A DNA stretch of 64,000 bases. It comes from Candidatus Formimonas warabiya (GTDB taxonomy: Bacteria > Bacillota > Dehalobacteriia > Dehalobacteriales > Dehalobacteriaceae). Location of the stretch: assembly GCF_002777255.1 (NCBI RefSeq), contig NZ_CP017634.1, forward strand, positions 5,034,903-5,098,902. The letters run 5' to 3'. The notes under the pieces are model-generated. The model was not told where the DNA came from, made no database searches, and worked only from the letters and a program-made list of their open reading frames with translations. A program made the position numbers and the translations under genes. Below, in pieces: positions 8,924 to 45,070 of this stretch; within the stretch, counting starts at the first letter, position 1, and each line of letters begins with the position of its first letter.

Positions 8924-10111
8924 ATGAATAATGAAGAAATTGTGGCGGAAGGCAAAAAATATGTCATGAATACATACGGCCGTTTACCGATGGCCATTGT
9001 CAAGGGAAAGGGAGCTTCTGTCTGGGATGCGGACGGCAAGGAATATCTGGATTTTGTGTCCGGCATTGCGGTCAATAATGTGGGCCACTGTCATCCCAAG
9101 GTGGTTCAGGCCATTGCCGCCCAGGCGGAGACTTTGTTTCACTGCTCCAACCTGTATTGGATTGAGCCTCAAGTCAAGTTGGCCAAGATCTTAGTAGAAA
9201 ACTCCGCCTTTGACAAGGTGTTTTTCTGCAACAGCGGGGCGGAAGCCAATGAAGGGGCGCTCAAACTGGCCCGGAAATATGCCAAAAAGCATCTGGGCGA
9301 GGATAAATACGAAATCATTACCATGAAAAAGTCTTTTCATGGGAGAACGCTGGCTACGCTGACGGCCACCGGGCAGGACAAATTTCATAAAGGGTATGAA
9401 CCCCTGCCGGAAGGCTTTCAATATGCTCCTTTTAACGATTTGGACGCTCTTCAGGAGGCCATCGGTCCCCATACCTGCGCGGTGATGCTGGAGCCTGTCC
9501 AGGGAGAAGGGGGCGTGATGCCGGGTGAAGAATCCTTTATTAAAGGTGTGCGGGAATTGTGTGACCGGCATCACTTGCTTTTTATCGTTGATGAAGTTCA
9601 GTGCGGGTTGGGAAGAACGGGAAAGCTGTTTGCATATCAACATTATGGTGTGGAGCCTGATATCATGACCCTGGCTAAAGCTTTAGGGGGCGGGGCGCCT
9701 ATCGGGGCTTTACTGGCCAAAGAGGAAGTGGCCAATGCTTTTCAGCCGGGTGATCATGCTTCTACTTTTGGAGGCAACCCCCTGGTTACAGCCGCCGGAG
9801 TAGCCGCTCTGACGGCAATTCTGGAAGAAGGTATGGTAGATAATTCAGCGATGGTAGGAGAGTATCTGATCCATAAGCTGGAATGCTTAAGACATAAATT
9901 CGATTTTATTAAAGAAGTAAGAGGAAAAGGATTACTGGTGGGGGTGGAGTGCGCGAAAGAAGTGGCTCCCGTAGTGGCGTCCTGTCAAGAAAAGGGTTTG
10001 CTGCTTTTGAGTGCAGGACCCCATGTGCTGAGATTTGTGCCTCCCCTGAATATTACCTTTACCCAGGTGGACCAGGCGGTGGCCATCCTGGAGCAAGCAT
10101 TTGACAGCTAA
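8924..10111 (+). CDS. argD: acetylornithine aminotransferase
   Basis: A 395-residue PLP-dependent class III transaminase that converts N-acetylglutamate semialdehyde and glutamate to N-acetylornithine. Family landmarks are FCNSGAEANEGALKLAR (phosphate binding), FHGRTLATLT, IVDEVQCGLGRTG (PLP-interacting Asp) and TLAKALGGGAPIGA with the Schiff-base lysine. AAAGGAGG lies 8 nt before the ATG. It sits 15 nt downstream of argB. Operon context separates it from the GABA-type aminotransferase at 32882. Confidence 0.97.
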   Translation: MNNEEIVAEGKKYVMNTYGRLPMAIVKGKGASVWDADGKEYLDFVSGIAVNNVGHCHPKVVQAIAAQAETLFHCSNLYWIEPQVKLAKILVENSAFDKVFFCNSGAEANEGALKLARKYAKKHLGEDKYEIITMKKSFHGRTLATLTATGQDKFHKGYEPLPEGFQYAPFNDLDALQEAIGPHTCAVMLEPVQGEGGVMPGEESFIKGVRELCDRHHLLFIVDEVQCGLGRTGKLFAYQHYGVEPDIMTLAKALGGGAPIGALLAKEEVANAFQPGDHASTFGGNPLVTAAGVAALTAILEEGMVDNSAMVGEYLIHKLECLRHKFDFIKEVRGKGLLVGVECAKEVAPVVASCQEKGLLLLSAGPHVLRFVPPLNITFTQVDQAVAILEQAFDS

Positions 10112-20018: not shown

Positions 20019-21776
20019 ATGCTTGACCCGACCCAATTTAAAGACTGGCAGATTGCTGAAGAAGCGGAAAAGACTATGCTTTCCCCGGAACAGTGGCAAG
20101 AAAAACTTGGTTTGGAAAAGGGTGAGATGATTCCTTTCGGAAAGACGCCCAAACTTGATTTTATCAAAATTATGGACAGACTGAAAGACCGCCCGGACGG
20201 AAACTTCGTCGAGGTTACCGCGATTACGCCGACTCCCTTAGGAGAAGGAAAATCGACTACATCATTGGGCCTAATTGAAGGATTGGGTAAGAGAGGAATG
20301 AATGTGGGCGGCTGCCTGCGCCAGCCTTCCGGCGGACCTACCATGAATGTGAAAGGAACCGCTGCCGGCGGCGGCAATGCGCTGCTGATTCCCATGACGG
20401 AATTTTCTTTGGGCCTCACGGGCGATATTAATGATATTATGAATGCCCACAACCTGGCGATGGTTGCTCTCAATGCCAGAATGCAGCATGAAGCGAATTA
20501 TAGTGACGCCGAATTAGCGAAAAGGAATTTAAAAAGACTGGATATTGATCCCAAAAACGTAGAAATGGGCTGGATTATCGACTTTTGTGCCCAAGGACTG
20601 AGAAACATCATGATCGGACTGGGCGGCAAAAAAGACGGCTTTACCATGCAGTCTAAATTTGGCATTGCCGTTAGTTCCGAGTTAATGGCTATTCTTGCTG
20701 TGGCCAGAGATTTGAAGGATTTACGGGAAAGAATTGCCGACATGATCGTTGCTTACGATAAGTACGGCAATCCTGTTACCACGGCTGATTTGGAAGTAGA
20801 CGGCGCTATGGCCGCCTTCATGCGCAATACCATTAATCCTACCCTGTGCTATACGGTTGAGCATCAGCCTGTACTCGTTCATGCCGGTCCTTTTGCCAAT
20901 ATTGCCATTGGCCAGTCTTCCATTATCGGGGACCGGGTAGGCTTGAAAATGTTTGATTACCATATTACAGAGAGCGGATTTGCTGCCGACATCGGATTTG
21001 AAAAATTCTGGAATGTCAAATGCCGCTTAAGCGGATTGACCCCGAATGTTTCCGTGCTGGTCTGTACCGTGCGTGCCCTCAAGATGCATGGAGGCGGCCC
21101 TACCGTAGTTCCCGGTCGTCCCTTGCCGGAGGCCTATACCAAACAGGATTTAGGCCTGGTAGAAAAAGGCTTGGAGAACTTGCTCCACCACTTGAAGAAC
21201 GTGAAGAAATCCGGGATCAATCCGGTGGTTTGTATTAACAGCTTTGCTACCGATACCAAGGAAGAGGTGGCACTGATTAAAAGAGCCGTGGAGCAAGCCG
21301 GCGGACGCTGCGCCGTTTCCGAACACTGGAGATACGGCGGCGACGGAGCTCTTGAGCTTGCCGATGCAGTTATTGACGCTTGTAAGGATCCGGTTAATTT
21401 CAAATGTCTCTATCCCATCGAAATGCCCTTAAGACAGCGGGTGGAAATAGTTGCCAAAGAAGTATACGGTGCGGACGGTGTTGATTGGGCTCCGGAAGCG
21501 GAAGCAAAAGCCAAGAGATTTGAATCTGATCCCAAGTATGCCGATTTCCAAACCATGATGGTGAAGACCCATCTCAGCTTGACCCATGATCCTACTCTGA
21601 AAGGTGTGCCGAAAAACTGGAGATTGCCCATCCGTGACGTACTTGTCTACGGCGGCGCCAAGTTCCTTTGCCCGATGGCCGGCACGATCAGCTTGATGCC
21701 GGGAACCGGTTCCGATCCGGCCTTCAGAAGAATTGATATTGACGTGAATACCGGAAAAGTAAGCGGGTTATTCTAA
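20019..21776 (+). CDS. fhs: formate-tetrahydrofolate ligase
   Basis: A 585-residue enzyme that activates formate with ATP and tetrahydrofolate to give 10-formyl-THF, the entry step of the methyl branch of the Wood-Ljungdahl pathway (or, in reverse, the ATP-yielding step of methyl oxidation). The P-loop-like [17 protein letters not shown] lies near residues 68-84, then [26 protein letters not shown] and the C-terminal [17 protein letters not shown] precedes ATG 20019. It is slightly longer than the usual 556-560 residues at the N-terminus. It stands alone with its own terminator, just upstream of pylD, and links the methyltransferase genes to one-carbon metabolism. Confidence 0.98.
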
Positions 21777-21797: not shown

Positions 21798-21833
21798 AAT
21801 CAGGAGGTCTTTTTGAGACCTCCTGATTTTTTT
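21798..21833 (+). terminator. terminator of fhs
   Basis: A 13-bp stem, AATCAGGAGGTCT (21798-21810) with AGACCTCCTGATT (21816-21828), is followed by T residues. Confidence 0.93.
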
Positions 21834-22035: not shown

Positions 22036-22848
22036 ATGACACGGCTTACTGTAAAAGACATTGATGGGCTTGATCAGGGGTTTTCCGCCTATGATAGGGA
22101 ACTAATTGAAAAGACCGGTATGACCTTAGGTGAAATTGCCTGTTTTTCCGCAGGAATTTCCCCCCAAGAGTTTCAGGAAGCAGGGGAAGATTACCGGGTT
22201 GCCGTCGTGCCGATCACAGCCGGCGAAGGGATCATTGGCGGATTCGCCCAGTCTGTGCAAGGGATCGTAGCCAGTTTAGGGTTTCAAGTATCGGTAACCC
22301 GGGAGACGGATGTGGACGGCATCTTTGAGGCGGTGTCTTCCGGCAGTGAAATCATTTTTATGGCGGATGATGTGCGCTTTATCGCCATAAATTTACACAA
22401 CAAAAGAATAGCAGATAATGGGGAAGCCACCGGCAGGGGCTATGTGGCTGCTCTGAACGGAATGGCAAAAGACCTGAACGGGTGCGAAGTATTGGTTTTA
22501 GGGTTTGGTCAAGTGGGTTCCCCGGCGGTAGAATTTCTTTTGGAGTTGGGAGCCAAACCCGCTGTTTATGATATTGACGAGGAAAAATTACATCACATAG
22601 ATAAAAATAAGGTTCAAGTGGAAAAGGATTTAAGGGCAGCGTTGCCTAAATATCACTATCTTATCGACGCTACACCGGAAAACAGTTTTATCGCCCCGGA
22701 GCTATTAGACGGGAAGGCAAAAATTGCTGCCCCGGGAATTCCCCTGGGACTTACTCCGGAAGCATATGGGAAATTTAAGGGCGCAACCATCCATGATCCT
22801 TTACAAATCGGAGTAGCAGCGATGCTGGCTTTGGCAGTAAAGCCTTAA
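22036..22848 (+). CDS. pylD: pyrrolysine biosynthesis protein PylD
   Basis: A 270-residue dehydrogenase that oxidises 3-methylornithyl-N6-lysine; the product cyclises to pyrrolysine. It shows the PylD plan: N-terminal substrate domain with VVPITAGEGIIGGFAQSV, then FMADDVRFIAINL (the conserved ADD segment) and a Rossmann domain with VLGFGQVG at residues 154-161. The end, HDPLQIGVAAMLALAVK, is also family-like. ATG 22036 follows AGAGGGAG; the longer TTG start is unlikely. tRNA-Pyl starts 8 nt after the stop, so both are probably on one transcript. pylB, pylC and pylS are not in the window, unlike the compact clusters of many bacteria. Confidence 0.93.
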   Translation: MTRLTVKDIDGLDQGFSAYDRELIEKTGMTLGEIACFSAGISPQEFQEAGEDYRVAVVPITAGEGIIGGFAQSVQGIVASLGFQVSVTRETDVDGIFEAVSSGSEIIFMADDVRFIAINLHNKRIADNGEATGRGYVAALNGMAKDLNGCEVLVLGFGQVGSPAVEFLLELGAKPAVYDIDEEKLHHIDKNKVQVEKDLRAALPKYHYLIDATPENSFIAPELLDGKAKIAAPGIPLGLTPEAYGKFKGATIHDPLQIGVAAMLALAVKP

Positions 22849-22856
22849 ATAAACGT

Positions 22857-22928
22857 GGGGGGTGGATCGGCAGGATCGCATAGACTCTAAATCTATGTAG
22901 CCGGGTGTAACTCCCGGACTCCCCGCCA
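22857..22928 (+). tRNA. pylT: tRNA-Pyl (anticodon CUA)
   Basis: A 72-nt tRNA that folds by eye with tRNA-Pyl hallmarks. These are a 7-bp acceptor stem (GGGGGGT with ACTCCCC), one base between acceptor and D stem, a 4-bp D stem with a 5-nt loop and a 6-bp anticodon stem (CATAGA with TCTATG). The loop is CTCTAAA, with anticodon CTA at 22887-22889; the variable loop is only 3 nt, and the T stem is CCGGG/CCCGG. Discriminator G and an encoded CCA end the gene. It decodes UAG as pyrrolysine. It sits directly after pylD, and amber-containing mtbB and mttB lie 4-7 kb downstream. Confidence 0.97.
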
Positions 22929-23012: not shown

Positions 23013-24767
23013 ATGATTAAGCTTGCAGATATTTCTCATGACGATTTTTTTCTTTTGCCCTCCGGGGCAAAAGTGGCCGATGTTCTGGAAGATATTTTAG
23101 ATCATCACACCCAATATATCATTCGCTGCTCAGAGAAAGAAGTTGGCGCAGTCTACCGGACATCTGTTTTATTGCGGGAAGCTCTGAAAAACGGCTCCGG
23201 TTCCCTGGGGGAAAATATCCTGGTCAGTGAGAGATTTGCCGTGATTCAGGAGGGGGATTCTCTCCTGGATTTATTGGCTTTGGAGGATCATCCTGATTTG
23301 ATTGTTCTGGTCAATGAGGGAACAGTTCCCGTGGGGATGATTGACGGGTTGGAGGCAATTCGGAAACTGCTCCATGATTTTTATGGGATGATACCCGGGA
23401 CAAAACTTTCTTTGCCGGAATACCGGGATATTGTGGAGCAACTGGAAGAAGAGATATTCGTTACCGATGGTGCCGGATTTATTTTATATCTGAACCCGGA
23501 AGGGGAAAAAGTTTGCGGCGTGAAACTGGAAGAGGTGATTGGAAAGCACGTCAGCGATTTGGAAAAGGCCAAGATTTTTACGTCCAGTACCACCGTTGAG
23601 GTGCTTAAAACCAAGAAGAAGGCCAATTTACTGCAAAAGCTGAAGTCCGGAAAAACGGTTTTGGCCACGGGCAGACCCATTTTTGATCAGAAAGGCCGGC
23701 TCGTCCGGGTTTTAAGTACCACGAAAGATGTCAGAGAGATCAATCATTTAATGGAACAGATTGAACAAAAGAACAAAGAGATTAAGCACAAAAACCAGGA
23801 GCTGACTTTGTTGCGGGAAAGTATTTTTGCCCAAGACAACTTTGTGTGCAAAAGCCCTAAAATGACAGGAATTAAAGATACCATCATCAAAATTGCCCCG
23901 ACGGATATCACTGTCCTGATTCAGGGAGAATCAGGCGTGGGAAAAGAAGTGGTGACAAAATTAATTCACAATTTAGGCCTGAGAAACAGGTACCCTTTGA
24001 TCAAGATCAATTGTGGCTTAATTCCGGAAAATTTGTTGGAATCCGAATTATTCGGTTATGAGGGCGGGGCTTTTACCGGGGCGAATAAACATGGGAAATT
24101 AGGGAAAATCGAATTAGCCAACCAGGGAACCTTATTTCTCGATGAAATTGGCGAGATGCCCTTAAGTCTCCAGGTGAAGCTGTTGGAGTTTTTGCAGGAC
24201 AGAGAGTTTACCCGGGTGGGAGGCACGCAAAAGATAAAAATTGATACCCGGGTGATTTTAGCCACCAACCGGGATTTGCAGACGATGGTCAATCAAGGCC
24301 GCTTCCGCCGGGATCTTTTTTACCGCCTCAATGTCCTGCCCATCAACATTCCTCCTTTAAGGGAGAGAGTGGAGGATATTCCGGTGCTGGCGGAATATTT
24401 CCTGGATCAATTCAACAACAAGTATCAAATGAATAAAAAGTTGGCCCCGGACGTGATCGAAGCATTTTATGAGTATGATTGGCCGGGCAATGTCAGGGAA
24501 TTGGTCCATTTTATTGAGAGAATCATGGTGATCAGTGATGCGGATTTCATTACCCGGGACATGTTGCCGGAAGTGTTCGGGGGAAATCCGTCTCCCCGCC
24601 AGACCATTATCTGCACCGACCTGATTCCTTTGAAAAAAGCGAAAAATGAATTGGAGGCCCAGCTCATCAAACGGGCTTACGAGATCTATAAATCTACCTA
24701 TAAAGTAGGAAAGGTATTAGAGATCGACCAGTCCACGGTGGTGAAACTGCTTAAAAAATATAGATAA
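23013..24767 (+). CDS. sigma-54-dependent transcriptional activator (CBS-like, PAS, AAA+, HTH)
   Basis: A 584-residue enhancer-binding protein. Residues 1-120 resemble a CBS pair; 135-240 form a PAS domain (IFVTDGAGFILYLNPEGE); a coiled linker follows. The AAA+ domain has Walker A GESGVGKE at 305-312, the sigma-54 contact loop GAFTGA at 352-357 and Walker B TLFLDEIGEM at 373-382. A short C-terminal HTH (about 540-580, KVGKVLEIDQSTVVKLLKKY) resembles TyrR-type HTH domains. ATG 23013 is chosen because AAGGAG lies 8 nt upstream; GTG 23004 overlaps that site. Two sigma-54 promoters with matching inverted-repeat arrays follow at 25146 and 26998, so it probably switches on the adjacent methyltransferase genes in response to a small ligand. 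Confidence 0.93.
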   Translation: MIKLADISHDDFFLLPSGAKVADVLEDILDHHTQYIIRCSEKEVGAVYRTSVLLREALKNGSGSLGENILVSERFAVIQEGDSLLDLLALEDHPDLIVLVNEGTVPVGMIDGLEAIRKLLHDFYGMIPGTKLSLPEYRDIVEQLEEEIFVTDGAGFILYLNPEGEKVCGVKLEEVIGKHVSDLEKAKIFTSSTTVEVLKTKKKANLLQKLKSGKTVLATGRPIFDQKGRLVRVLSTTKDVREINHLMEQIEQKNKEIKHKNQELTLLRESIFAQDNFVCKSPKMTGIKDTIIKIAPTDITVLIQGESGVGKEVVTKLIHNLGLRNRYPLIKINCGLIPENLLESELFGYEGGAFTGANKHGKLGKIELANQGTLFLDEIGEMPLSLQVKLLEFLQDREFTRVGGTQKIKIDTRVILATNRDLQTMVNQGRFRRDLFYRLNVLPINIPPLRERVEDIPVLAEYFLDQFNNKYQMNKKLAPDVIEAFYEYDWPGNVRELVHFIERIMVISDADFITRDMLPEVFGGNPSPRQTIICTDLIPLKKAKNELEAQLIKRAYEIYKSTYKVGKVLEIDQSTVVKLLKKYR

Positions 24768-25145: not shown

Positions 25146-25162
25146 TTGGCATATTTTTTGCT
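25146..25162 (+). promoter_or_regulatory. sigma-54 promoter A
   Basis: TTGGCATATTTTTTGCT matches the -24/-12 consensus (YTGGCAC-N5-TTGCW) with correct GG-to-GC spacing. It lies 171 nt upstream of the MttB-homologue gene, with transcription expected near 25174. Confidence 0.75.
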
Positions 25163-25332: not shown

Positions 25333-26814
25333 ATGAAAAGAAGTGAAAAATCCGGCATTGAGATCGGCACGGGGTTTGGCTTGAAGTCTTTTTCCCCGGA
25401 CCAAGTAGAGATGCTTCATGATGCTACATTAAAGGTGCTCCAAGATACGGGAATCAAAGTAGAAAGCGATGCGGCGGCGGAAATATTTTCCGGGGCCGGT
25501 GCGCAGGTAGAGCGCTTTTCCAATTATTTTACCGTGAGAATCCCTTCCTATATTGTGGAAGACTGCATCCGCTGGGCGGCCCGTCCGGGAATTTTTTACG
25601 GCCGGGTTCCGGAAGATGACTTTCTTGCGGAGCCCCATCGGGTTGGGTTTGCCACCTTTGGTGAATGTATTCAAGTGATCGACCCCGTGACCAGAAGGGT
25701 GAGGAAGTCTACCAAAAAAGACTGCGGGGATATCTCCCTGATTTGCGACTATTTTGACGAGATCAGCGTCATGGAACGGCCTTGCTGCTCCTCGGATATG
25801 CATCCGGAGACACAGCCCCTGCACAATTTGGAAGCCATTTTTACCAATACTTCCAAACCGGTGTTTCTCGCCGCTGTGAACCCGCGCAATTGCAGAAAAA
25901 TGGTGGAGATGGCGATCGTCTGTGCCGGAGGAAAGGAAAACTTCCATAAACGTCCCTTCCTAAATATTTTTGTTTGTCCTACCAGCCCCTTGCTTTTAGT
26001 GAAAAATTGCTGCGATGTGATTATAGAAGCGGCCGGATTAGGGGCGGGCATTGCTATTATTCCCATGGCTTTAGCCGGCGCCACGTCGACAGCGACTTTG
26101 GCCGGGACCATCGTCACCCACAATGCGGAAGTATTAAGTGCTCTTGCCTTGGCCCAGCTGACGAAAAAAGGCTGCCGTTGTGTTTATTGCGGTGTGAGCA
26201 CGATTATGGATCTCCGGCTCATGGTGGGCCCGGTAGGTGCTCCGGAACAGGCTTTATTGGCTTCCGGGGCCGCAAAACTGGCCCAATATTATCGATTACC
26301 CAGTTGGATCGGCGGCGGTGTGTCGGACAGTAAACTGCCTGATGCCCAAGCAGCTTATGAGTTTGCCCTTAACGCTTTAACCGGCGCTTTGGCCGGAGCG
26401 AACATTGTCTATGGCGCAGGTGTGCTGGAATTAGGCCTGACCCAAGATTATGCCAAGCTGGTGCTGGACGTGGAAGCCATCCGGTCCATCAAAAGAATCA
26501 TGAAAGGCGTGGAAATTACCGATGAGACCCTGGCCTTGGATGTGATCCATCAGGTTGGTGCCGGCGGAGAGTTTCTCACCCACGCGCATACCTTTCAGCA
26601 TATGCGGGAACAGTCCCAACCGGCCCTTTTTGACCGGAAGACCCGGGATTCCTGGCTGAAAAGCGGAGGAAAAGATGCTGCGGAACGGGCTTACGAAGAG
26701 GCCTTACATATTTTGGAGAACCATCGGCCCAAGGTCCTACCTCCGGGGGCAGCCGGTATCATGAAAGAAATTATTGCTGATTATGAAAAAGAACTTGGTG
26801 TGGCCGGAAAATAA
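25333..26814 (+). CDS. MttB-family corrinoid methyltransferase without pyrrolysine
   Basis: A 493-residue TIM-barrel methyltransferase of the trimethylamine/betaine superfamily. It is the closest relative in the window of the Pyl-containing MttB at 29462, sharing stretches such as VTHNAEVL and DSKxPDAQAA. At the pyrrolysine position (residue 330, codon 26320) it has Val, so it should use a quaternary amine or another substrate rather than trimethylamine; this is known for MtgB-type homologues. GGCGGAGG precedes ATG 25333. It sits behind sigma-54 promoter A and ahead of promoter B, implying joint control with mtbB-mttB. The methyl acceptor is probably the corrinoid protein at 28622. Confidence 0.88.
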   Translation: MKRSEKSGIEIGTGFGLKSFSPDQVEMLHDATLKVLQDTGIKVESDAAAEIFSGAGAQVERFSNYFTVRIPSYIVEDCIRWAARPGIFYGRVPEDDFLAEPHRVGFATFGECIQVIDPVTRRVRKSTKKDCGDISLICDYFDEISVMERPCCSSDMHPETQPLHNLEAIFTNTSKPVFLAAVNPRNCRKMVEMAIVCAGGKENFHKRPFLNIFVCPTSPLLLVKNCCDVIIEAAGLGAGIAIIPMALAGATSTATLAGTIVTHNAEVLSALALAQLTKKGCRCVYCGVSTIMDLRLMVGPVGAPEQALLASGAAKLAQYYRLPSWIGGGVSDSKLPDAQAAYEFALNALTGALAGANIVYGAGVLELGLTQDYAKLVLDVEAIRSIKRIMKGVEITDETLALDVIHQVGAGGEFLTHAHTFQHMREQSQPALFDRKTRDSWLKSGGKDAAERAYEEALHILENHRPKVLPPGAAGIMKEIIADYEKELGVAGK

Positions 26815-26997: not shown

Positions 26998-27014
26998 TTG
27001 GCAAAGGTTTTGCT
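26998..27014 (+). promoter_or_regulatory. sigma-54 promoter B (mtbB operon)
   Basis: TTGGCAAAGGTTTTGCT carries GG and GC at the exact -24/-12 spacing and fits the consensus at most conserved positions. It predicts a transcript starting near 27026 with a leader of about 170 nt before mtbB; the leader holds no gene. Confidence 0.75.
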
Positions 27015-27196: not shown

Positions 27197-28591
27197 TTGG
27201 ATAAGTTTTTTACCAGGATGGGGGATGGTTCCGCGGTCTGGATGAGCGAGGAAGACATTCGCTGGGACTTGGAAGAGGGCATGAAAGATGCGGCAGACCG
27301 GGGCAAAATTCCTGAGCTGACCGATGATGAAATGCAACAATTATTTGAAATAGTCACCCATCCCTTAAAGAATGTAAGCTGTGCCCGGGGAAATGAGGCC
27401 GTGGTCACCTTTGATGCCGGAACCTTAAAGCTGCCTGTGCGGGCAGGGCTTCCCATGGACCGGATGACCACCATTCTCACCCATGAAAGGGCCTTATGCT
27501 CGGATACCATGGAGCTTTGCACCACGGACTACAGTTATAAATCGATTAAGAATTTTGTTCATGAAGAAGCCATGTCTATGGAACTGGCCCAATTAAACAG
27601 CATCATCCCGCTGTTTTACGGCGCCATGCCCAATCTGGGCCAGTACACAAAACCGGATGGCCCCATTGATAACTGGTCGGAACTTTTACCGATGGCAAAA
27701 ATTGCTGAAGCACGGGCCGCGCAAGAGGAAGCGATTGAACATGCGGTGCGGGATATGGTCTTTATTGCCAGCGCCCTTTACGAAGAAGGCGGGGCAGACG
27801 GCATCAACTTTGACACGGTAGGCGCGTCAGGAGACGGAGATGTTCTGGCTACGCTCAAAGCAGCCCAAATCCTCAAGGGAAAATATCCGGAAATACCCAT
27901 TGAAATCGGCATGTCCGGAGAATTTGTCTTGGGGATGCACGGCCAGTTGGCTTTTGACGGTACCAGATTGGCGGGGCTTTATCCCCACCAGCAGGTCAAG
28001 GTTTGTGAAAAGGCCGGCGCCACCATCTTTGGTTGTGTGATCAATACCAACAGCAGCATGTCCTTTGCCTGGAATCTGGCCCGAACGGTCACCTTTACCA
28101 AAGCCTGCGTAGAAGCGGCCAGCATTCCGGTTCACGTGAATGCCGGGATGGGTGTGGGCGGGGTGCCCTTGACCAATACTTCTCCCACCGATGCTACGTC
28201 CCGGGCCTCAAAGGCCATTATTGAAATCGGCAAGGCGGACGGGTTGTAGATTGGTCATGGCGATGCCTACGGGATGGCCGTGATGCATGAGGTGACCACA
28301 GGCATGGGCGGAATACGTACTGCCGGAGATCTGGTAGCACGGATGCAGATGCTGAAGGGCATGAAATTGAAGGATGCGAAAGAATATGTAGCAGGGAAAC
28401 TAGGGGTTGACCTGTTCGATCTTTCCGATTCCTATGTGATGAAAGAGCTGAGGGAACAGCTGGATATCGGCACTGTGCTGGACCGGGCCAACGCTTCTTT
28501 TGGTATGGAAGCCAAGTTCAACATCGCCCGGGTCCTGGATATTCCCATCAATTCGGTAAATAAATTTAAACGAAAAGTTGGCATGGTATAA
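27197..28591 (+). CDS. mtbB: dimethylamine methyltransferase MtbB with in-frame amber (pyrrolysine)
   Basis: The gene reads 350 codons, meets TAG at 28247-28249, and continues in frame for 113 more codons to TAA, giving 464 residues, the usual MtbB length (about 467). The sequence before the amber, GKADGL, and after it, IGHGDAYGM, fits the MtbB active site, where pyrrolysine (residue 351) binds the amine. It transfers a methyl group from dimethylamine to a corrinoid protein. Other landmarks are IPLFYGAMPN, GINFDTVGASGDGD and HVNAGMGVGGVPL. Start TTG 27197 follows AAAGGAGG. It is the first gene after sigma-54 promoter B; the corrinoid partner gene follows at 28622. Automated annotation would split it in two. 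Confidence 0.95.
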
Positions 28592-28621: not shown

Positions 28622-29266
28622 ATGAGTCGTGAAGCTTTGATTCAAGAAGCCATTGATACTATTCTGAAATATGACAAGGAGCGGGCGGTGCAGATCGCCC
28701 GGCAAGTACTTTCCGAGGGGCTGGATCCGGTGGATATTCTGACCAACGGATTCAGTGTGGGCATCCGGCAGGTGGGAGATCTTTTCGGCCGGGGCGAGGT
28801 TTTTCTTCCCGAACTGATGCTCTCCGCGGATGTGATGAAATCTGTCACCGGTGCCTTCGAAGGTGCCATGGACGGCAAGGCGGCCCAGAAAAAGGGGAAG
28901 ATGATTTTTGCCACCGTGGAAGGAGACGTCCATGACATTGGTAAAGGGATTGTGATCTCTCTCATTAAGACCCAAGGAATAGAGATCATTGACTTAGGCC
29001 GGGATGTTCCGGTAAGCAAAATTATTGAGAAGGCGGTAGAGGTCGATGCGGATTTAATCGGCACCAGCGCTTTGTTAACCACCACTTTGGTGGAACAAAA
29101 GAAATTGGAAGAGGAGCTTAAGAAGCATGGCCTGCGCAATAAGTTTAAGACCATGGTCGGGGGAGCCCCGGCTACCCAGCGCTGGGCGGACCGGATCGGC
29201 GCCGATGCCTATGGAGAAGATGCGGCCGATGCCGTGAACAAAGCCCTGGCATTATTAAACGAATAA
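28622..29266 (+). CDS. mtbC: methylamine corrinoid protein
   Basis: A 214-residue B12-binding protein with an N-terminal helical cap (about 1-85) and a Rossmann-like cobalamin domain. The signature GDVHDIGKG lies at residues 101-109, with H104 as the lower cobalt ligand, followed by IGTSALLTTTL and MVGGAPATQ. It receives methyl groups from MtbB and/or MttB; whether it is strictly MtbC or MttC cannot be decided, and it is the only corrinoid protein in this operon. GGAGG lies a few bases before the ATG. It lies 30 nt downstream of mtbB and about 200 nt before mttB; the gap contains a relic of an MtgA-like gene. Confidence 0.92.
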   Translation: MSREALIQEAIDTILKYDKERAVQIARQVLSEGLDPVDILTNGFSVGIRQVGDLFGRGEVFLPELMLSADVMKSVTGAFEGAMDGKAAQKKGKMIFATVEGDVHDIGKGIVISLIKTQGIEIIDLGRDVPVSKIIEKAVEVDADLIGTSALLTTTLVEQKKLEEELKKHGLRNKFKTMVGGAPATQRWADRIGADAYGEDAADAVNKALALLNE

Positions 29267-29415: not shown

Positions 29416-29461
29416 TTGTGGTAAGAGATCAAACCGGATCATTCTTTTGGAGGTGAAAGGA

Positions 29462-30937
29462 GTGTCACGAAATTTACACGCAGGATTTCATCGCATCGAC
29501 GGTTTTGGCATCAATGTTTTTTCCCGGGACGAATTGTATGCCGTCCACTGCGCTACTTTGGATGTGCTGCAGCATGTGGGAGTAAGAGTGGACAGCAAAG
29601 AAGCCCAGGAAATTTTCGCCGGCGGGGGAGCTACGGTGGACCCTCAGACCGACATTGTGAAAATACCTCCCTACATGGTGGAAGATGCGCTGCGTTGGGC
29701 TCCCGGCACCTTGCTGCTGGCGGCCCGGGACCCGAAAAAGGATTATATTTTGGAGAGCAACCGGGTGGGATTTGTCAATTTCGGTGAAGGGGTCAATATC
29801 ATCGATCCTGTGACCCGAAAGTACCGGCCTACCAACAAAAGGGATGTGGCCAACGCCGCCTTGATGAGCGACTATTTATCGGAAATGGATATTTCCTATC
29901 GGGCCGTGGTAGCCCAGGATCAACCGGGGCATGTGCAGTCCCTCCATAATGCGGAAGCCATTTTTCCCAATACCGCCAAACACTTTTTCATCGGCGCGGA
30001 CGGTGTGAAAAACGCCCGGAAGCTGATTAAGATGGGGGCGGCCCTAGCCGGCGGTAAGGATAAATTAAAAGAAAGACCCCTGATCAGTTTCAACGTCTGC
30101 CCCACCAGCCTTTTAAAACTAATCCCCGAGTGTACGGATGTGGTCATGGAAGCTGCCCGGGCCGGGATTCCTGTGAATATTATTTCCATGGCCATGGCCG
30201 GAGCCACCTCTCCCGTAACCCTGGCAGGAACTTTAGTGACCCATAATGCGGAAGTGCTGGCAACCATCGTACTCAGCCAGTTCACATGCAAGGGCGCTCC
30301 CTGTATTTACGGAAGCTCTACGACGATCATGGATATGCGGTATACCACCGCACCCGTAGGGGCGCCGGAACTGGGCATGATTAGCGCGGCGGTGGCCAAA
30401 ATGGCTCAATATTACTTGCTGCCTAGTTTTGTCGCGGGCGGGTAGGCGGACAGTAAAGTGCCTGACGCTCAAGCAGCTCATGAAAAAACCCTCACCGGTC
30501 TTTTGGCTGCCCAGGGTGGCGCCAACCTGATCTATGGGGCCGGGATGCTGGAGCTGGGAATTACTTTTGACTTTGCCCAATTTGTTATGGACAACGAGAT
30601 CTTTAAAATGATCAGAAAAGCTGTGGGCGGCATCCGCGTCACCGATGCCGACATGGCGGTGGATATCATCAAGGAGATCGGACCCGGCGGAGAATTCATC
30701 AGCCATGCCCATACCTTCGAGAACTTTAGAAAAGAGCAGTCCCAAAGCAGATTAATTGACCGCACCATGCGTGATACCTGGTTGCTCAGCGGAGGAAGGG
30801 ACCTAACGGAGAGAGCCTATGAAGAGGCCAATCATATCCTGAATACGCACAAGGTGGCCCCTTTGGCTCCCGGGACCGAAGGTACGATCCGGTCTATTGT
30901 GGAAGAGGCGGAGGAGGAGTACGGAATAAAAAGGTGA
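29462..30937 (+). CDS. mttB: trimethylamine methyltransferase MttB with in-frame amber (pyrrolysine)
   Basis: The coding frame runs to TAG at 30443-30445 and then continues without break to TGA 30937, 491 residues in all. The amber (residue 328) lies in PSFVAGG[12 protein letters not shown]. The non-Pyl paralogue at 25333 has PSWIGGG-Val-SDSKLPDAQ, so alignment proves that the two halves are one gene. MttB moves a methyl group from trimethylamine to its corrinoid protein. GTG 29462 is preferred over TTG 29447 because GGAGG lies 8 nt upstream of it. It is the last gene of the promoter B operon. The 158 nt up to the next BCCT gene contain no obvious strong terminator. Confidence 0.96.
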
Positions 30938-36137: not shown

Positions 36138-36770
36138 ATGGCAAATTATGAAGACTTGTCAAAACAGGTAATTGCGGGTAATCAAGCCAAAGTAAAAGAG
36201 CTGACCCAAAGCCTGGTTGATGGAGGGGACGCTCCCCTTGAAATTATCAATCAAGGCCTGATTGCCGGGATGAACGTAGTTGGTGCCCGTTTCAAAAACG
36301 GGGAAATGTTTGTTCCTGAAGTACTAATGGCTGCTAAATCCATGGCTGCCGGGATCGAAATTGTCAAACCCTTGATCGCAGCCGAAGATATGCCTTCCAT
36401 TGGAAAGGTGCTGTTAGGTACCGTGAAAGGTGACCTGCATGACATAGGCAAGAACCTGGTAGGGATGATGTTGGAAAGCGGCGGGTTTACCGTCATTAAT
36501 ATGGGCATCGATATTTCTCCGGAACAGTTTGTGGCAGCGATAAAAGAATACAAACCGGATGTTTTGGCGATGTCGGCTTTGCTTACCACGACCATGCTGC
36601 ACATGAAAGACACCATTGAGTTAATGAAAGAAGAAGGCCTGGCAGACAAAGTAAAAGTCATCGTTGGTGGGGCACCTATCTCTCAGGACTTTGCGGATGA
36701 AGTCGGCGCCGACGGTTTTGCCCCTGATGCCGCATCTGCAGTGGATCTGTGCAAAAAGCTTTTAAGCTAA
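36138..36770 (+). CDS. corrinoid protein 1 of duplicated pair
   Basis: A 210-residue cobalamin-binding methyl carrier. The helical cap is followed by VKGDLHDIGKNLVGMMLESGGF with His101 as cobalt ligand, then MSALLTTTMLHMKDTI and VGGAPISQDFADEVGAD. It is roughly 90% identical to the protein at 38305, a recent duplication. It stands 31 nt before the MttB homologue at 36802, which presumably methylates it. The start ATG follows a GGGGGA stretch. It is only distantly similar to the methylamine corrinoid protein at 28622, indicating a different partner enzyme. Confidence 0.93.
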   Translation: MANYEDLSKQVIAGNQAKVKELTQSLVDGGDAPLEIINQGLIAGMNVVGARFKNGEMFVPEVLMAAKSMAAGIEIVKPLIAAEDMPSIGKVLLGTVKGDLHDIGKNLVGMMLESGGFTVINMGIDISPEQFVAAIKEYKPDVLAMSALLTTTMLHMKDTIELMKEEGLADKVKVIVGGAPISQDFADEVGADGFAPDAASAVDLCKKLLS

Positions 36771-36801
36771 AGTTTTGAAAGAAAGAAAGGAGAGAAGACA
36801 G

Positions 36802-38259
36802 TTGTATACAACAAAAAGTAATTATTCTCGGGCCAATTATGAGGTAAACCAAACCACATTATGGAAAATGCTCAGTGAAGACCAGTGTGAACAAATTGTC
36901 ATGACTGCGTTAGAAGTTCTGGAAAGGACGGGCGCAGAAGTATTAAACAAAGAAGCATTAGAGATATTTGAAAAAGGTGGCTGCTGGGTAGACGGAAACA
37001 GAGTGCGCATTCCTTCCTCCTTATCCGAGTGGGCGGTGCGGACGGCTCCCTCCAGAGTAACGCTCTGTGACAGAAACGGCAAACGGGCTTTAAGTTTAGA
37101 AACAACCAATGCCTATTATGGACCGGGACAAGACAATGTGAACATCGTTGATCCCATGACGGGGGAATTGAGAAAACCGGTAAAAGCCGACGTTGCTACG
37201 ACCGGATTACTATGTGACGGATTAAAGAACATAGATTTTGCCATGAGCAATGGCCTGCCCACAGACGTCGATGCAAATGCGGCCGAAGTACATGCCTTCG
37301 AAGCATTGGTCACCAATACCACCAAACCGATCATACAAAGCGTGAAAAATGTCAAACAAGCCCAAGCCATTGTGGACATTGCCAGTGCAGTGGCAGGGGA
37401 TCTAAGAGAACTGCAAAAGAAACCTTTCGTAGCCCTCTATTTCGGCACAGAAGGCACCCTAATTCATTCTGAAGAAACCTTAGCCAAAGTAATCTTTGCC
37501 GCCAAGAACGGCATACCCTTTGTGTATGCCACCAAATTAATCGCCGGGGATACCGCTCCCGCCACTTCAGCCGGAGCGATCGTCGTTGCTCTTGCCGATG
37601 TATTGGTAGGTATTCTGCTTAGCCAGTTAGTGCGCCAAGGTGCTCCCGTAATTGCCGGCGGTTTCTTCACCATCAATGACACGGCGAACGGCATCCTTCC
37701 CCAGGGAGCGCCGGAAGTAAGCCTGATGGGAACAGGAATGAGCAACGTGCTTCGTTATCTCCGCATCCCCAGTTTCGGCTTTGCCGGTGCTACCGATGCC
37801 AAACACAGCGATGCCCAGATGGGATTAGAATCCGCCTTCTCCGTCCTCCATGCCGGTATGTGCGGCACCAACCTCATTCACGGCTGCGGTCAGATGGAAT
37901 ACGGCTTGACCGGTTCCCTGGAACTGCTTGTCATGAACATAGAAGCCATCGGCATGACCCGCCGGATCATGAAAGGCGTAGAAGTCAACGAAGAAAGATT
38001 ATCCCGGGGCGTCATTGATGCGGTTCAGCCTGGGGGACATTACCTAGGAGAAGAACATACCCTCAAATTCTTCAAATCCGAATTCTGGTGGCCCGCCTTA
38101 ATGAACAGAAACCGGATTGACGACTGGACAGCCATGGGAGCCAAATCCATGGGACAGCGCGTCAAAGAAAAGGCCCAAAGCATCATCAAAAACCATCAAC
38201 CCGAAAAATTAGCTGAAGAAACACTGGCCAAAATCAAAGCCATTGTAGACAAAGCATAA
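36802..38259 (+). CDS. MttB-family methyltransferase without pyrrolysine (Ala at Pyl site)
   Basis: A 485-residue member of the MttB superfamily. The segment matching the pyrrolysine loop reads SFGFAGATDAKHSDAQ, with Ala at residue 330 where MttB has pyrrolysine, so it belongs with MtgB-like enzymes that demethylate betaines or other methylated compounds. Substrate is unknown. The TTG start at 36802 is preferred because AAAGGAG lies about 8 nt upstream and the downstream paralogue also starts with TTG after AAAGGAG. It is co-transcribed with the corrinoid genes on both sides (45 nt to the next). Confidence 0.88.
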   Translation: MYTTKSNYSRANYEVNQTTLWKMLSEDQCEQIVMTALEVLERTGAEVLNKEALEIFEKGGCWVDGNRVRIPSSLSEWAVRTAPSRVTLCDRNGKRALSLETTNAYYGPGQDNVNIVDPMTGELRKPVKADVATTGLLCDGLKNIDFAMSNGLPTDVDANAAEVHAFEALVTNTTKPIIQSVKNVKQAQAIVDIASAVAGDLRELQKKPFVALYFGTEGTLIHSEETLAKVIFAAKNGIPFVYATKLIAGDTAPATSAGAIVVALADVLVGILLSQLVRQGAPVIAGGFFTINDTANGILPQGAPEVSLMGTGMSNVLRYLRIPSFGFAGATDAKHSDAQMGLESAFSVLHAGMCGTNLIHGCGQMEYGLTGSLELLVMNIEAIGMTRRIMKGVEVNEERLSRGVIDAVQPGGHYLGEEHTLKFFKSEFWWPALMNRNRIDDWTAMGAKSMGQRVKEKAQSIIKNHQPEKLAEETLAKIKAIVDKA

Positions 38260-38304
38260 TTGGATAAAGAAAGAAAAAGCGTTTGATAGGGAGGTAAATA
38301 TAAA

Positions 38305-38937
38305 ATGGCAAATTTCGAAGAACTGTCCAAATACGTGATCGCAGGAAATCAGGCAAAAGTAAAAGAACTGACCCAAGGCCTGGTCAATGAAGGAGTCGCT
38401 CCTTTAGATATCATCAACCAGGGACTCATTGCCGGCATGACCATAGTCGGTGCCCGCTTCAAAAACGGTGAAATGTTTGTTCCTGAAGTATTAATGGCAG
38501 CCAAATCCATGGGTGCCGGCATTGAACTGGTCAAACCCCTCATCGCGGCCGAAGATATGCCTTCCATCGGCAAAGTACTGCTGGGTACTGTCAAAGGCGA
38601 CCTGCATGACATTGGTAAAAACCTGGTCGGCATGATGCTGGAAAGCGGCGGATTTACCGTGATCAATGTAGGAATCGATATTTCACCGGAACAATTTGTC
38701 AAATACATCAAAGAACACAACCCGGATGTATTAGCCATGTCCGCATTGCTGACCACCACCATGCTGCACATGAAAGACACCATCGAATTAATGAGAGAAG
38801 AAGGATTGCGCGATAAAGTAAAAGTCATCGTCGGGGGAGCCCCCATCTCCCAAGATTTTGCAGACGAAGTCGGCGCCGACGGTTTTGCTCCTGATGCCGC
38901 TTCCGCAGTAGACCTGTGCAAAAAGTTATTAAGCTAA
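38305..38937 (+). CDS. corrinoid protein 2 of duplicated pair
   Basis: A 210-residue near-copy of the corrinoid protein at 36138, identical in the cobalamin site GDLHDIGKNLVGMML and in the C-terminal half except for a few substitutions (for example KYIKEHNPD for AAIKEYKPD). GGGAGG precedes the ATG. It is paired with the MttB homologue at 38969, so each methyltransferase has its own carrier. The high identity despite divergent partner enzymes suggests gene conversion or shared acceptor use. Confidence 0.93.
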   Translation: MANFEELSKYVIAGNQAKVKELTQGLVNEGVAPLDIINQGLIAGMTIVGARFKNGEMFVPEVLMAAKSMGAGIELVKPLIAAEDMPSIGKVLLGTVKGDLHDIGKNLVGMMLESGGFTVINVGIDISPEQFVKYIKEHNPDVLAMSALLTTTMLHMKDTIELMREEGLRDKVKVIVGGAPISQDFADEVGADGFAPDAASAVDLCKKLLS

Positions 38938-38968
38938 ATTTCTGTAGTAAAGAAAGGAGAGAAAAAAG

Positions 38969-40435
38969 TTGACAACGCGAACGAATTTCAAAGCTTATGC
39001 CAGTTCCATGATGAACGTATTCTCACCTGCCCAGTGCCAAGAATTAGTATGGGCTGCTGAAGAGGCCATGTGGCGAACGGGGACAGATTTTTATGATAAA
39101 GAATCCTTAGAAATCATGAAAAAAGCCGGCTGCTGGGTAGACGGCAAACGGGTTAGAATTCCTGCCCACATCACCGAGGCAGCCTTAAGATCCTGCCAAA
39201 AACACGTCGTCTTATGCAACAGCCGTACCGGCGCCCGGGAACTCTTCGTAGAAGGCAACAACTCCTACTTCGGTTCCGGTCCCTGCACGCCGTTCACGAG
39301 AAACCCCTTCACCGGGGAAAGACACCGGGCGACCAGACAATCGGTAGGCTGGGCCACCAAAGTATTAGACGCGCTGCCCAACATCGACTATGCCATGTCC
39401 CTGGGGATTGTACAGGACGTACCCCTATTAATATCCGACCGGCACGAATTTGAACAACAGATACTTCATACCGAAAAACCCATCATCACCGTATGTGTAG
39501 ACCAGTGGGGCCAGGAAGACTGCATCAAAATGGCGGAAATCGTCGCCGGCGGCGAAGAAGAACTGCGCCGGAATCCCTTCATCTGCTTATATGCCGAACC
39601 AATTTCCCCCGGCATGCACTGCCGGGAAGCTGCCCAGAAACTAGTCATGGGCGCGAAAAAAGGACTGCCCACCATTTACACCCCATGCATCATGGCTGGC
39701 GGTACAGCTCCTGCCACCATGGCCGGTGTAATGGTCCAAGGACTATGTGAAAGCTTAAGCGGTCTCGTACTCAGCCAGTGCACCCGGGAAGGCGCTCCCT
39801 TCATCATGGGTGGTGTATACACCATTCTTGACATGGGATCCACCATCTTCTCCTACGGGGCACCGGAACTGCACCTGCTCCTGGCCGGACTGGCCGATGT
39901 AGCCCACTATCTGCAGATTCCCATGTTTGGCACGGCAGGGTGCACCGACTCCTGCATCATCGACGAGCAGGCCGGTATCGAAGCCGCCCTATCCATAGCC
40001 ATGACCAACATGTCCGGAGCCAACCTCAACCATGACACCGGATATTCCGAATACGGCACCACCTCCAATCTGGACCTGGTTGTTGTCGCTGACGAGGTTC
40101 TGGGTATGGCCAGAAGGTTAACCAAAGGGATCCGGGTAGACGATGAAACCCTGGCCCTGGATATCATTGAAAAAGTAGGACCGGGCGGTAAATTCGGCGC
40201 TGAAGAGCATACCCAAAACCACATGGAAGAAAATTATGTACCGCGCTTAGTGAACCGGGCTGCCCGGGACATCTTTGAACAAGCCGGAGGCAAGACCTTG
40301 ACCCAAGTAGCCAACGAAAAAGTCCGGGACATCATTAACTACCATGAACCGGCTCCGCTGCCCAAAGAGATCGCGGCGAAGATTAGAGACATCGTGGAAA
40401 ATGCTGTCGGCCATATGCCGGGAGAAGATGAGTAA
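38969..40435 (+). CDS. MttB-family methyltransferase without pyrrolysine (Cys at Pyl site)
   Basis: A 488-residue MttB-superfamily protein, distant from its upstream neighbour. The loop at the pyrrolysine position reads MFGTAGCTDSCIIDEQ, placing Cys325 at that site and replacing the usual Lys of DAK/DSK with Cys, so two cysteines (325 and 328) face the presumed active site. This is unusual within the window and may mean a different chemistry or a bound metal. TTG 38969 follows AAAGGAG. It is the last gene of the four-gene corrinoid/MttB unit, followed by strong hairpins. Confidence 0.86.
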   Translation: MTTRTNFKAYASSMMNVFSPAQCQELVWAAEEAMWRTGTDFYDKESLEIMKKAGCWVDGKRVRIPAHITEAALRSCQKHVVLCNSRTGARELFVEGNNSYFGSGPCTPFTRNPFTGERHRATRQSVGWATKVLDALPNIDYAMSLGIVQDVPLLISDRHEFEQQILHTEKPIITVCVDQWGQEDCIKMAEIVAGGEEELRRNPFICLYAEPISPGMHCREAAQKLVMGAKKGLPTIYTPCIMAGGTAPATMAGVMVQGLCESLSGLVLSQCTREGAPFIMGGVYTILDMGSTIFSYGAPELHLLLAGLADVAHYLQIPMFGTAGCTDSCIIDEQAGIEAALSIAMTNMSGANLNHDTGYSEYGTTSNLDLVVVADEVLGMARRLTKGIRVDDETLALDIIEKVGPGGKFGAEEHTQNHMEENYVPRLVNRAARDIFEQAGGKTLTQVANEKVRDIINYHEPAPLPKEIAAKIRDIVENAVGHMPGEDE

Positions 40436-40445
40436 AACAAAAATA

Positions 40446-40525
40446 GGCTGCCTGTTTGTACAGGCGGCCCTTTGAAACAAGTGCAAAATTCAGGTGGGGG
40501 TTTTTGACCCACCTGAATTTTGACA
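40446..40525 (+). terminator. double hairpin terminator
   Basis: GGCTGCCTG with CAGGCGGCC (40446-40470) is followed by a 14-bp perfect stem, AAAATTCAGGTGGG (40485-40498) with CCCACCTGAATTTT (40508-40521). It ends the corrinoid/MttB operon. Confidence 0.85.
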
Positions 40526-40563
40526 CATTTCGTAATTTCATCGAGGTTTGAGGGGGAAGGACA

Positions 40564-42570
40564 ATGTCACTAGTACTTGGTATAGATACTGGAGGTACTT
40601 ACACCGACGGTGTCGTGGTGGAGCTAAAAAGCAAAGAGATCTTAAAAAAGGCCAAGGCTTTAACCACCCGAGAAGATTTGTCCGTCGGCATCCGTAACTG
40701 TATCAATAATTTGGAATTTGAAGAATTTAACAAAATTAGTGTGGTATCTCTTTCAACAACGTTAGCGACCAATGCCATCGTGGAGGGCCGTGGGTGTGAA
40801 GTCGGACTGCTCATGATCGGACATGAACCTATTTCTAAGCTCCCTATCGAGCATTTTTCGGTACTGCCCGGCGGACATGATATTAAAGGCCGACCTCTCA
40901 GTGACCTCGACCTTGAACTGACCCGTAAGGCAATTAGTGAATTTAGGGGCAAAGTAGATGCCATTGCCATCTCCGGATATTTAAGCGTGCGAAACCCGGA
41001 ACATGAAATCAAGGTAAGAGAAATGGTGCGGGAAATTCTGGACCTGCCTGTGGTATGTGCGCACCAGCTTACGACATCTTTAGGGTTTCATGAGAGGACT
41101 GTCACCGCGGTTCTTAACGCCCGGTTAATTCCCATTATCGCGGAGTTGATTGAATCCGTCCAACAGGTGCTGGAAGAAAGACAAATTGAGGCTTCTGTCA
41201 TGATTGTCAAAGGAGACGGCTGTTTAATGAGCGAGTCTCTGGCCCGGGAGAAGCCCATTGAAACCATTCTCTCCGGACCGGCCGCCAGCATTATCGGCGG
41301 GACTTTTTTGACCCAAACTCCGGAGGCTCTGGTGCTGGATATGGGGGGAACTACCACGGATATTGCCATTTTAAAGAATGGCGTGCCCCGGATCAACCAG
41401 GAAGGGGCGATGGTGGGCGGATGGCTTACCAGGGTTCTGGCTGCAGAAATTTATACCTACGGACTGGGCGGAGACAGTTATATCCAGTTGACCAAGGACA
41501 GGGGTATTGCGGTGGGTCCCCAGAGGGTTTGGCCCCTTTGTGTCGTGGCCTATCGGCATCCTTCCCTGGTGGAGGAATTAAAGGTAAGCTTTGAAAAAGA
41601 TTATGATCTGATGTTTGCTCAAGCCACCGACTGTTTTATGTTTTTAAGACATGCTACGGCAGAGAAACTTACCGATCTGGAGGAAAAAGTAATTTCCATT
41701 CTTCAGGATGGTCCCCGAAGCCTTTATTACCTTGCCCAAAGGCTGGAAATTGACCCTAACCTGTTCAATCTGCAGCATCTGGTAAACCTGGGGGTTGTGG
41801 CCAGAATATCGGTTACACCCACGGACATCCTTCATGCGAAAGGGACTTACGACCAGTGGAACAGGGAAGCAGCCCAAGTCGGTGTGGAAATTCTTGCCCG
41901 AAGAATGGGCGTAACACCACAAGAGTTTATTGATATGGCTTCCGAGACCATTGTCAACGATCTTTGCCTCACCTGCCTGCAGAGCTTAGTGGGCTGTGAG
42001 GGGGAAAGCATGTGGCTGAAGAAAAATGATGACGTGATGTATTTGATTAAAAAGGCCTTGTCTCCTGCCAAAAATCAGGTATTTGACTGTTCCTTTAAGG
42101 TAAAAATGCCTGTAGTGGGAATTGGGGCACCGGTACGCGCCTGGCTTCCTAAGATGGCAGAAAAATTAAACACCGAGCTGGTGATTCCTGAGCATGCGGA
42201 AGTGGCTAATGCAGTAGGCGCGGCCACCGGGAGAATTATGGAGACCGTCAAAGTGCTGATTAAACCGGGAGAAGCCGGCAGTGGATATCTCTTGCATACC
42301 TCTTGGGAGCGAAGACCCTTTGAAGAGCTGGAAGAGGCAGTAGAATATGCCTTGGATGAGGCTAAGAAAAGGGCAGTTCTGGCGGCGGAAAAAGCGGGCG
42401 CCAAGAATTATGAGCTGGTTGTCAACCATGAAGACGTTTATGCCAATGCCAGCATGATTGAAAATGATATTTATGTGGAATCACGGATAGAGGTAACGGC
42501 AGTAGGGCGACCTGAATGGGAAAGGGAAGAGGAAAAAGAGAAATTTTTTGTCGACACCATTGGTTGTTGA
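40564..42570 (+). CDS. hydantoinase/oxoprolinase (HyuA)-family ATPase
   Basis: A 668-residue protein of the ASKHA-fold HyuA family. It has the N-terminal phosphate loop LVLGIDTGGTYTDGVVVE, the second loop VLDMGGTTTDIAILKNG near residue 259, and LSGPAASIIGGT. Known relatives split hydantoins or 5-oxoproline with ATP or carboxylate ketones with a second subunit; no hyuB-like subunit is present. A region around residues 360-440 resembles a winged helix (ISILQDGPRSLYYLAQRLEI), unusual for HyuA. It stands alone between terminators, within the methyltransferase region. It could process an N-methylated ring compound or help activate a methyltransferase; neither is shown. Confidence 0.8.
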   Translation: MSLVLGIDTGGTYTDGVVVELKSKEILKKAKALTTREDLSVGIRNCINNLEFEEFNKISVVSLSTTLATNAIVEGRGCEVGLLMIGHEPISKLPIEHFSVLPGGHDIKGRPLSDLDLELTRKAISEFRGKVDAIAISGYLSVRNPEHEIKVREMVREILDLPVVCAHQLTTSLGFHERTVTAVLNARLIPIIAELIESVQQVLEERQIEASVMIVKGDGCLMSESLAREKPIETILSGPAASIIGGTFLTQTPEALVLDMGGTTTDIAILKNGVPRINQEGAMVGGWLTRVLAAEIYTYGLGGDSYIQLTKDRGIAVGPQRVWPLCVVAYRHPSLVEELKVSFEKDYDLMFAQATDCFMFLRHATAEKLTDLEEKVISILQDGPRSLYYLAQRLEIDPNLFNLQHLVNLGVVARISVTPTDILHAKGTYDQWNREAAQVGVEILARRMGVTPQEFIDMASETIVNDLCLTCLQSLVGCEGESMWLKKNDDVMYLIKKALSPAKNQVFDCSFKVKMPVVGIGAPVRAWLPKMAEKLNTELVIPEHAEVANAVGAATGRIMETVKVLIKPGEAGSGYLLHTSWERRPFEELEEAVEYALDEAKKRAVLAAEKAGAKNYELVVNHEDVYANASMIENDIYVESRIEVTAVGRPEWEREEEKEKFFVDTIGC

Positions 42571-42581
42571 AGCAAGGTCTT

Positions 42582-42614
42582 AACTTGCTAAGTGATTTTC
42601 TTAGCAAGTTTTGG
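42582..42614 (+). terminator. terminator of the HyuA-like gene
   Basis: AACTTGCTAAG (42582-42592) and CTTAGCAAGTT (42600-42610), an 11-bp perfect stem, then TT. Confidence 0.85.
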
Positions 42615-42618
42615 AACT

Positions 42619-42698
42619 GCAAATGCATGACTTAATTGGCGTTGGACTCCCGAGGCGGGAGACTTACGCCAAGTTAGTCAGGTAAAAACTGTATTTGC
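42619..42698. repeat. 80-nt nested palindrome
   Basis: Nested arms: GCAAAT/ATTTGC outermost, then TGACTTAATTGGCGT with ACGCCAAGTTAGTCA (two mismatches), then CTCCCG/CGGGAG at the tip. It is an intergenic cruciform-capable element before the MtgA-like gene; only one copy is seen in the window. Confidence 0.65.
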
Positions 42699-42787
42699 CC
42701 TAAACTGTTCTTAGTGGCATAATAAATGATCATAAGGGATCTATCAAAGACAAAAGAGAATAATGGTTACGAGGAGGATATCTTAGC

Positions 42788-43585: not shown

Positions 43586-43624
43586 AAAGTTTGCTTCTAA
43601 AAAGATCTTAGGAGGTGCGGCTGG

Positions 43625-45040: not shown

Positions 45041-45070
45041 CGGTCTGAACAGAACGAGCCATAGCAAGGT

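Follow-up and report, generated by a model that had tools for sequence, protein, structure and literature searches.

A pylD-pylT pair in 'Candidatus Formimonas warabiya' as the probable remnant of a second pyrrolysine cassette

Background

Pyrrolysine is the rare 22nd amino acid, and the bacterial genes for it (pyl) are described as a compact cluster that is inherited as a self-contained unit. The order of the genes is known to vary among bacteria. The locus studied here raises the question of how a pylD gene comes to stand beside a tRNA-Pyl gene with no other pyl gene near it, and where the rest of the set is found. It lies in a window of 64,000 nucleotides, the whole stretch of DNA that was analysed, which corresponds to positions 5034903-5098902 of the single 6,441,270-bp contig of the DCMF genome. 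An original prediction, made from this window alone, had recognised pylD and a tRNA-Pyl 8 nt behind it, flanked by fhs and a sigma-54 activator and without pylS, pylB or pylC; it had proposed a split locus, perhaps regulated together with the methylamine genes, to be checked by a genome-wide search and a tRNA-Pyl covariance model. 'Ca. Formimonas warabiya' DCMF ferments dichloromethane and glycine betaine, and a single pyrrolysine gene cluster with pylT, pylSc, pylSn and pylBCD has been described for it (PMC6778437).

The pylD and pylT genes

The pylD gene occupies positions 22036..22848 of the plus strand, from an ATG at 22036 to a stop codon that ends at 22848, and is annotated as 3-methylornithyl-N6-L-lysine dehydrogenase. 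Its product scores 251 bits against NCBIfam TIGR03911 (cut-off 150.05), covers profile positions 1-262 of 266 and matches the PylD structure 4j43 with an E value of 1.5e-34. The nucleotide-binding segment LGFGQVG and the C-terminal motif HDPLQIGVAAML are kept in the alignment with M. barkeri PylD (4j43), and the protein is predicted to oxidise 3-methylornithyl-N6-lysine. No other match above the TIGR03911 cut-off was found in the genome, so that all pyrrolysine proteins of DCMF, among them 23 of its 96 methylamine methyltransferases (PMC6778437), should depend on this one pylD.

The gap between pylD and pylT (22857..22928, plus strand) is 8 nt. At 22857-22928 ARAGORN reports a tRNA with the anticodon CUA, which has a 7-bp acceptor stem, one base before the 4-bp D stem, a 5-nt D loop, a 6-bp anticodon stem, a 3-nt variable loop, G73 and an encoded CCA end. 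A covariance model trained on 19 other tRNA-Pyl genes, with the window copy left out, gave a single match in the 158 kb searched: the window tRNA, at full length (96.5 bits, E 7e-22). In an alignment of 21 tRNA-Pyl sequences each distinct row forms all 22 pairs, nine of which show two-sided changes. The pair that had been proposed from the letters of the window, including the peculiar shape of the tRNA, is thus confirmed by profile, covariance model and structure.

This pylT is one of three in the genome, and it shares 85% and 82% identity with its two paralogues (15-18% different). In their anticodon stems the three tRNAs show compensatory changes (T-A to C-G, A-T to G-C), which argues that all three copies are kept functional. 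Letters at G8, in the D stem, in the T arm and in the variable loop are near-identical across the three, which suggests that the window tRNA-Pyl may be charged by PylSc/PylSn.

Distribution of the pyl genes in the genome

The pyl genes of DCMF are spread over five places on the chromosome. There are single copies of pylD, pylSc and pylSn, four copies of pylB, three tRNA-Pyl genes and two pylC of full length, one of which has a degraded active site. An operon pylT-pylSc-pylB-pylC-pylSn, without pylD, is located at 6.238 Mb, about 1.18 Mb from the pylD of the window; a pylB-pylC pair lies at 6.280 Mb, pylT-pylB with a truncated pylC at 1.663 Mb and a lone pylB at 3.579 Mb. Within the 64-kb window none of pylSc, pylSn, pylB and pylC was found, the nearest copy of any of them being about 1.18 Mb off on the contig, and pylD accordingly adjoins none of the four. 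The genome-wide search nevertheless recovered every gene that the window lacks, as the original prediction would have it, and the complete set (pylT, pylSc, pylSn, pylB, pylC and pylD) is present in DCMF. This scattered arrangement corrects the published description of one cluster (PMC6778437).

At its other loci, pylB is found within or next to gene sets for trimethylamine methyltransferase, which comprise mttB with UAG, a corrinoid protein and a methyl-THF methyltransferase. In all four PylB proteins the CxxxCxxC cluster and the C-terminal conserved region are retained. Of the PylC copies, that at 6.238 Mb is intact with its catalytic motifs kept, and that at 1.663 Mb misses about 230 central residues. 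PylC at 6.280 Mb has no KPSGSSGS-type loop and no MDVE or EIDAR motif: this second full-length copy (L026 10704-11897, ~6.2807-6.2819 Mb) retains an open frame, with the ATP-grasp loop and the metal-binding motifs gone. It is probably not a working ligase and could possibly be a pseudoenzyme or a decaying copy. We also observed a group II intron signature (L027 18333-18425), at a distance of about 8 kb from the locus that holds pylT, pylB and the truncated pylC.

A dispersed gene set could in principle be produced by faulty assembly or contaminating DNA, and the genome database that we searched does list 9.77% contamination for DCMF. The genome, however, is one closed contig, the published assembly has even long-read depth and 2% CheckM contamination (PMC6778437), and the same split recurs in the independently assembled single-contig genome of a relative (G002, 3,766,545 bp). 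The chance that the split is an artefact is practically negligible.

Conservation of the split among relatives

The operon pylT-Sc-B-C-Sn without pylD is found in three genera of the family, represented by DCMF, G001 and G002, and the order fhs-pylD likewise in three, represented by DCMF, G002 (L043) and G003 (L044; pylD at 9251-10087). In G001 (L110) the operon is present and pylD was not found, in G003 pylD is present and pylB, pylT and pylSc were not found; both are fragmented drafts, in which gene loss and missing contigs look alike. In a phylum-wide survey of 398 genomes, of which 24 have pylD, supplemented by the other pyl-bearing family of the class, pylD lies near another protein-coding pyl gene in all 26 genomes outside the family of DCMF and in none of the three within it. 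A single-protein scan of genome contigs returned three archaeal relatives only and was too narrow to be useful. The split is old, and each of its halves is kept in three genera of the family.

Directly after pylD, a pylT is found only in DCMF among the family genomes. In G002 a lactate-racemase-like gene follows about 60 nt past pylD, and its relative in the window is at 34360; DCMF and G002 thus differ in an 11.5-kb block that holds pylT, the activator and the mtt genes. The pylD of G002 (L043 ~9500-9600) appears to carry a frameshift in a run of A near codon 28, which may represent a real break, a slippage site or a sequencing error.

Two cassette lineages

In the PylD tree, DCMF, G002 and G003 group with the families f34 and f53, whose gene orders are C-Sn-Sc-D-T or Sc-D. 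The support for this grouping is moderate (87/97), as is the rejection of joining the PylD of the family to the T-Sc-B-C-D-Sn group (p-AU 0.024; 0.0012 for the f10 pair alone), and the AU p values are somewhat optimistic because the tree groups were named after the first tree had been seen. PylSc of DCMF, G001 and G002 groups with f10 (100/99), and its placement with f34/f53 was rejected (p 2.7e-5). The PylB proteins at 6.238 and 1.663 Mb belong to the first lineage, on the T-Sc-B-C-D-Sn/f10 side, those at 3.579 and 6.280 Mb to the second, and a single clade for all PylB of DCMF was rejected (p 0.001). The window pylT is 93% identical to f34 pylT genes that are located 20-49 nt after pylD; it has the GGCAG D loop in common with all three f34 pylT genes and the CATAGA/TCTATG anticodon stem with two of the three. 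Trees of the tRNA, built from 72 nt, are weak.

It is therefore supported statistically that PylD and its tRNA would descend from another cassette (Sc-D-T) than the operon with PylSc, PylB, PylC and PylSn. The simplest reading of the two lineages, which appear in the PylD, PylSc and PylB trees and in the tRNA, is that two cassettes coexisted and suffered reciprocal loss, from which we infer that one chimeric pyl pathway was left. The split locus of the original prediction is real, but it does not appear to be a single cassette that was divided.

A simple relocation would nevertheless account for one detail: pylD is missing from the operon precisely between pylC and pylSn, its place in T-Sc-B-C-D-Sn relatives. 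On this account pylD would have left the family's own pylT-Sc-B-C-D-Sn operon and settled beside fhs, where a duplicate of pylT was added afterwards. We regard it as unlikely, as PylD falls outside that lineage (p-AU 0.024; 0.0012 with f10) and the window pylT is nearer to the f34 pylT after pylD (93%) than to its own paralogues (85%, 82%). We also considered, and rejected, that the pair was inherited from the second family of the class that has pyl genes: its gene order is Sc-D-T too, yet its PylD groups elsewhere. A genome with both complete cassettes was not found among those surveyed.

We thus favour, as a probable explanation, that pylD-pylT is the remnant of a second cassette, which comprises two cassettes, reciprocal loss, a chimeric pathway and a pylD that is not under sigma-54 control. 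An ancestor of the family would have carried the cassettes Sc-D-T and T-Sc-B-C-D-Sn side by side, the latter losing pylD and the former its synthetase genes. At present, up to four copies of PylB and the one PylC that is intact would supply 3-methylornithyl-lysine, which the window PylD, as sole copy, would oxidise to pyrrolysine. PylSc/PylSn of the other cassette would charge three tRNA-Pyl species, including that of the window, which would be cut out of the pylD transcript, and the charged tRNAs would read UAG in the mttB and mtbB genes. Sigma-54 dependence is predicted for the pylT-Sc-B-C-Sn operon, as for the methyltransferase genes, and pylD-pylT would probably be transcribed from a housekeeping promoter or by read-through of the fhs terminator.

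Neighbouring genes and sigma-54-type sites

The surroundings of pylD-pylT agree with what had been read from the window: fhs, for formate--tetrahydrofolate ligase (20019..21776, plus strand; NF010032, 1083.7 bits), lies upstream and is followed by a terminator-like hairpin with a T run (21798..21828, plus strand), and a sigma-54-dependent activator with PAS, AAA+ and HTH domains (23013..24767, plus strand; PrdR-like, under the PrdR family cut-off) lies downstream, its gene beginning 84 nt past pylT. Further along the plus strand are sigma-54-type promoter sites at 25147..25162 and 26999..27014 (each 14.5 of 18.5), which precede mttB1 (25333..26814; TIGR02369, 588.6 bits) and mtbB, respectively. 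The latter (27197..28591; Pfam Dimeth_Pyl, 640 bits; PYLIS_2) encodes a dimethylamine methyltransferase with an in-frame UAG at 28247 and is followed, on the same strand, by a corrinoid protein gene (28622..29266; Pfam B12-binding domains) and by mttB (29447..30937; Pfam MTTB; PYLIS_3) with an in-frame UAG at 30443. The product of this mttB is a putative pyrrolysine protein that pylD-pylT would serve.

The mttB-family product of mttB1 scores above the trimethylamine-methyltransferase cut-off and has valine at the pyrrolysine position: there is no UAG, and a GTG stands at 26320 where mttB at 29447-30937 has UAG. Rfam PYLIS_3 still matches mttB1 with 64 bits, and thus a PYLIS match alone is no proof of pyrrolysine. 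UAG also ends five of the 41 main open reading frames of the window (15649 on the minus strand, 35631, 49691, 53914 and 59615), so that ordinary stops may be read through in cells that make pyrrolysine. At 36138-49691 the window holds three MttB-family proteins, two corrinoid proteins, an N-methylhydantoinase-like protein, a methyltransferase II and two glycine-betaine BCCT transporters. This is the make-up, matched by gene content only, of cluster Ga0180325_114734-114742, which is reported to be highly abundant in DCMF grown on glycine betaine (PMC9768040).

A scan for -24/-12 elements with approximate weights (highest possible score 18.5; in 64 kb, about 0.7 sites scoring 14 or above are expected) gave sites of 14.5-17 located 33-64 nt 5' of the operon pylT in DCMF, G001, G002 and f10, and sites in the same range before the lone pylB, mttB1 and mtbB. 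With the same approximate weights, the fhs-pylD gap shows no sigma-54-like site in DCMF (best score -0.3), G002 (5.9) or G003 (5.4), and no -24/-12 element thus precedes the pylD unit. Hairpins resembling terminators were also seen by eye after fhs in G002 and G003, in both of which a promoter of its own for pylD would have little space. In the window, a terminator-like site was not found in the gap that separates pylT from the activator gene, and pylD, pylT and the activator may therefore share one transcript.

The original prediction had considered that pyrrolysine supply is regulated with the methylamine genes, and an activator gene only 84 nt past pylT, the sites at mttB1 and mtbB and the induction of Acetohalobium pyl genes by trimethylamine (PMC11467909) would fit a regulon in which this activator switches on pylD-pylT together with the mtt genes. 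The scores in the fhs-pylD gap of three genera (-0.3, 5.9 and 5.4) compare poorly with the 14.5-17 before the pylT-Sc operon, and the activator does not adjoin pylD in G002 or G003. With sites in front of mttB1, mtbB and the remote operon and none near pylD, the proposed co-regulation is left unsupported at the level of sequence; we consider it improbable. A literature search that combined pyrrolysine, sigma-54 and trimethylamine methyltransferase found nothing. Given that pylD has no sigma-54 site, a housekeeping promoter or leakage from fhs seems likelier than induction by amines. A two-tier control may tentatively be proposed, in which PylD, one tRNA-Pyl and perhaps the activator would be constant, with methylornithine synthesis, charging and the amber methyltransferases switched through sigma-54 by amines.

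Comparison with known systems

Two kinds of cassette resemble the parts of the DCMF set. The 6.238-Mb operon has the order of the Desulfitobacterium hafniense-type cassette pylTScBCDSn, belongs to the same lineage by PylSc and PylB, and shares with f10 (T-Sc-B-C-D-Sn) a sigma-54 site before pylT. In contrast to that cassette, it lacks pylD, which lies about 1.18 Mb away and is of another lineage, and DCMF has extra copies of pylB, pylC and pylT elsewhere. The C-Sn-Sc-D-T cassettes (f34 and others, L091-L093) have pylT directly after pylD (20-49 nt), as in the window, and provide the closest PylD lineage and the most similar tRNA-Pyl; of such a cassette, however, the window keeps D-T only, with pylSc, pylSn, pylB and pylC not adjoining.

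Precedents for a split pyl set with extra copies, as in DCMF, are found in Methanomassiliicoccales, where pylB of 'Ca. M. alvus' lies about 0.7 Mb from pylTSCD and M. luminyensis has two pyl clusters together with isolated pylC and pylT (PMC3941956). These systems are archaeal and without PylSn, and the distant gene of 'Ca. M. alvus' is pylB, not pylD; the copies in M. luminyensis are a lineage-specific duplication, whereas in DCMF two cassette lineages would have merged. Split pyl sets with additional copies are thus already known, and DCMF is a variant on that theme. In the part of the literature that was searched, we found no description of a bacterial pyl set so divided or drawn from two cassette lineages.

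Conclusions

Searches based on clusters can misjudge complete pyl systems such as this one. If the two-tier control applies, UAG decoding would be gated at PylB/PylC/PylSc, and the copy number of pylB (four loci, of which one or more have a sigma-54 site of their own) would tune the supply. The charging of a tRNA-Pyl of other lineage by PylSc/PylSn, the interchangeability of PylD and the switch of UAG decoding become testable. The parts of the DCMF system apparently come from two lineages and presumably work in one pathway, which would mean that the pyl unit can be broken up and mixed.
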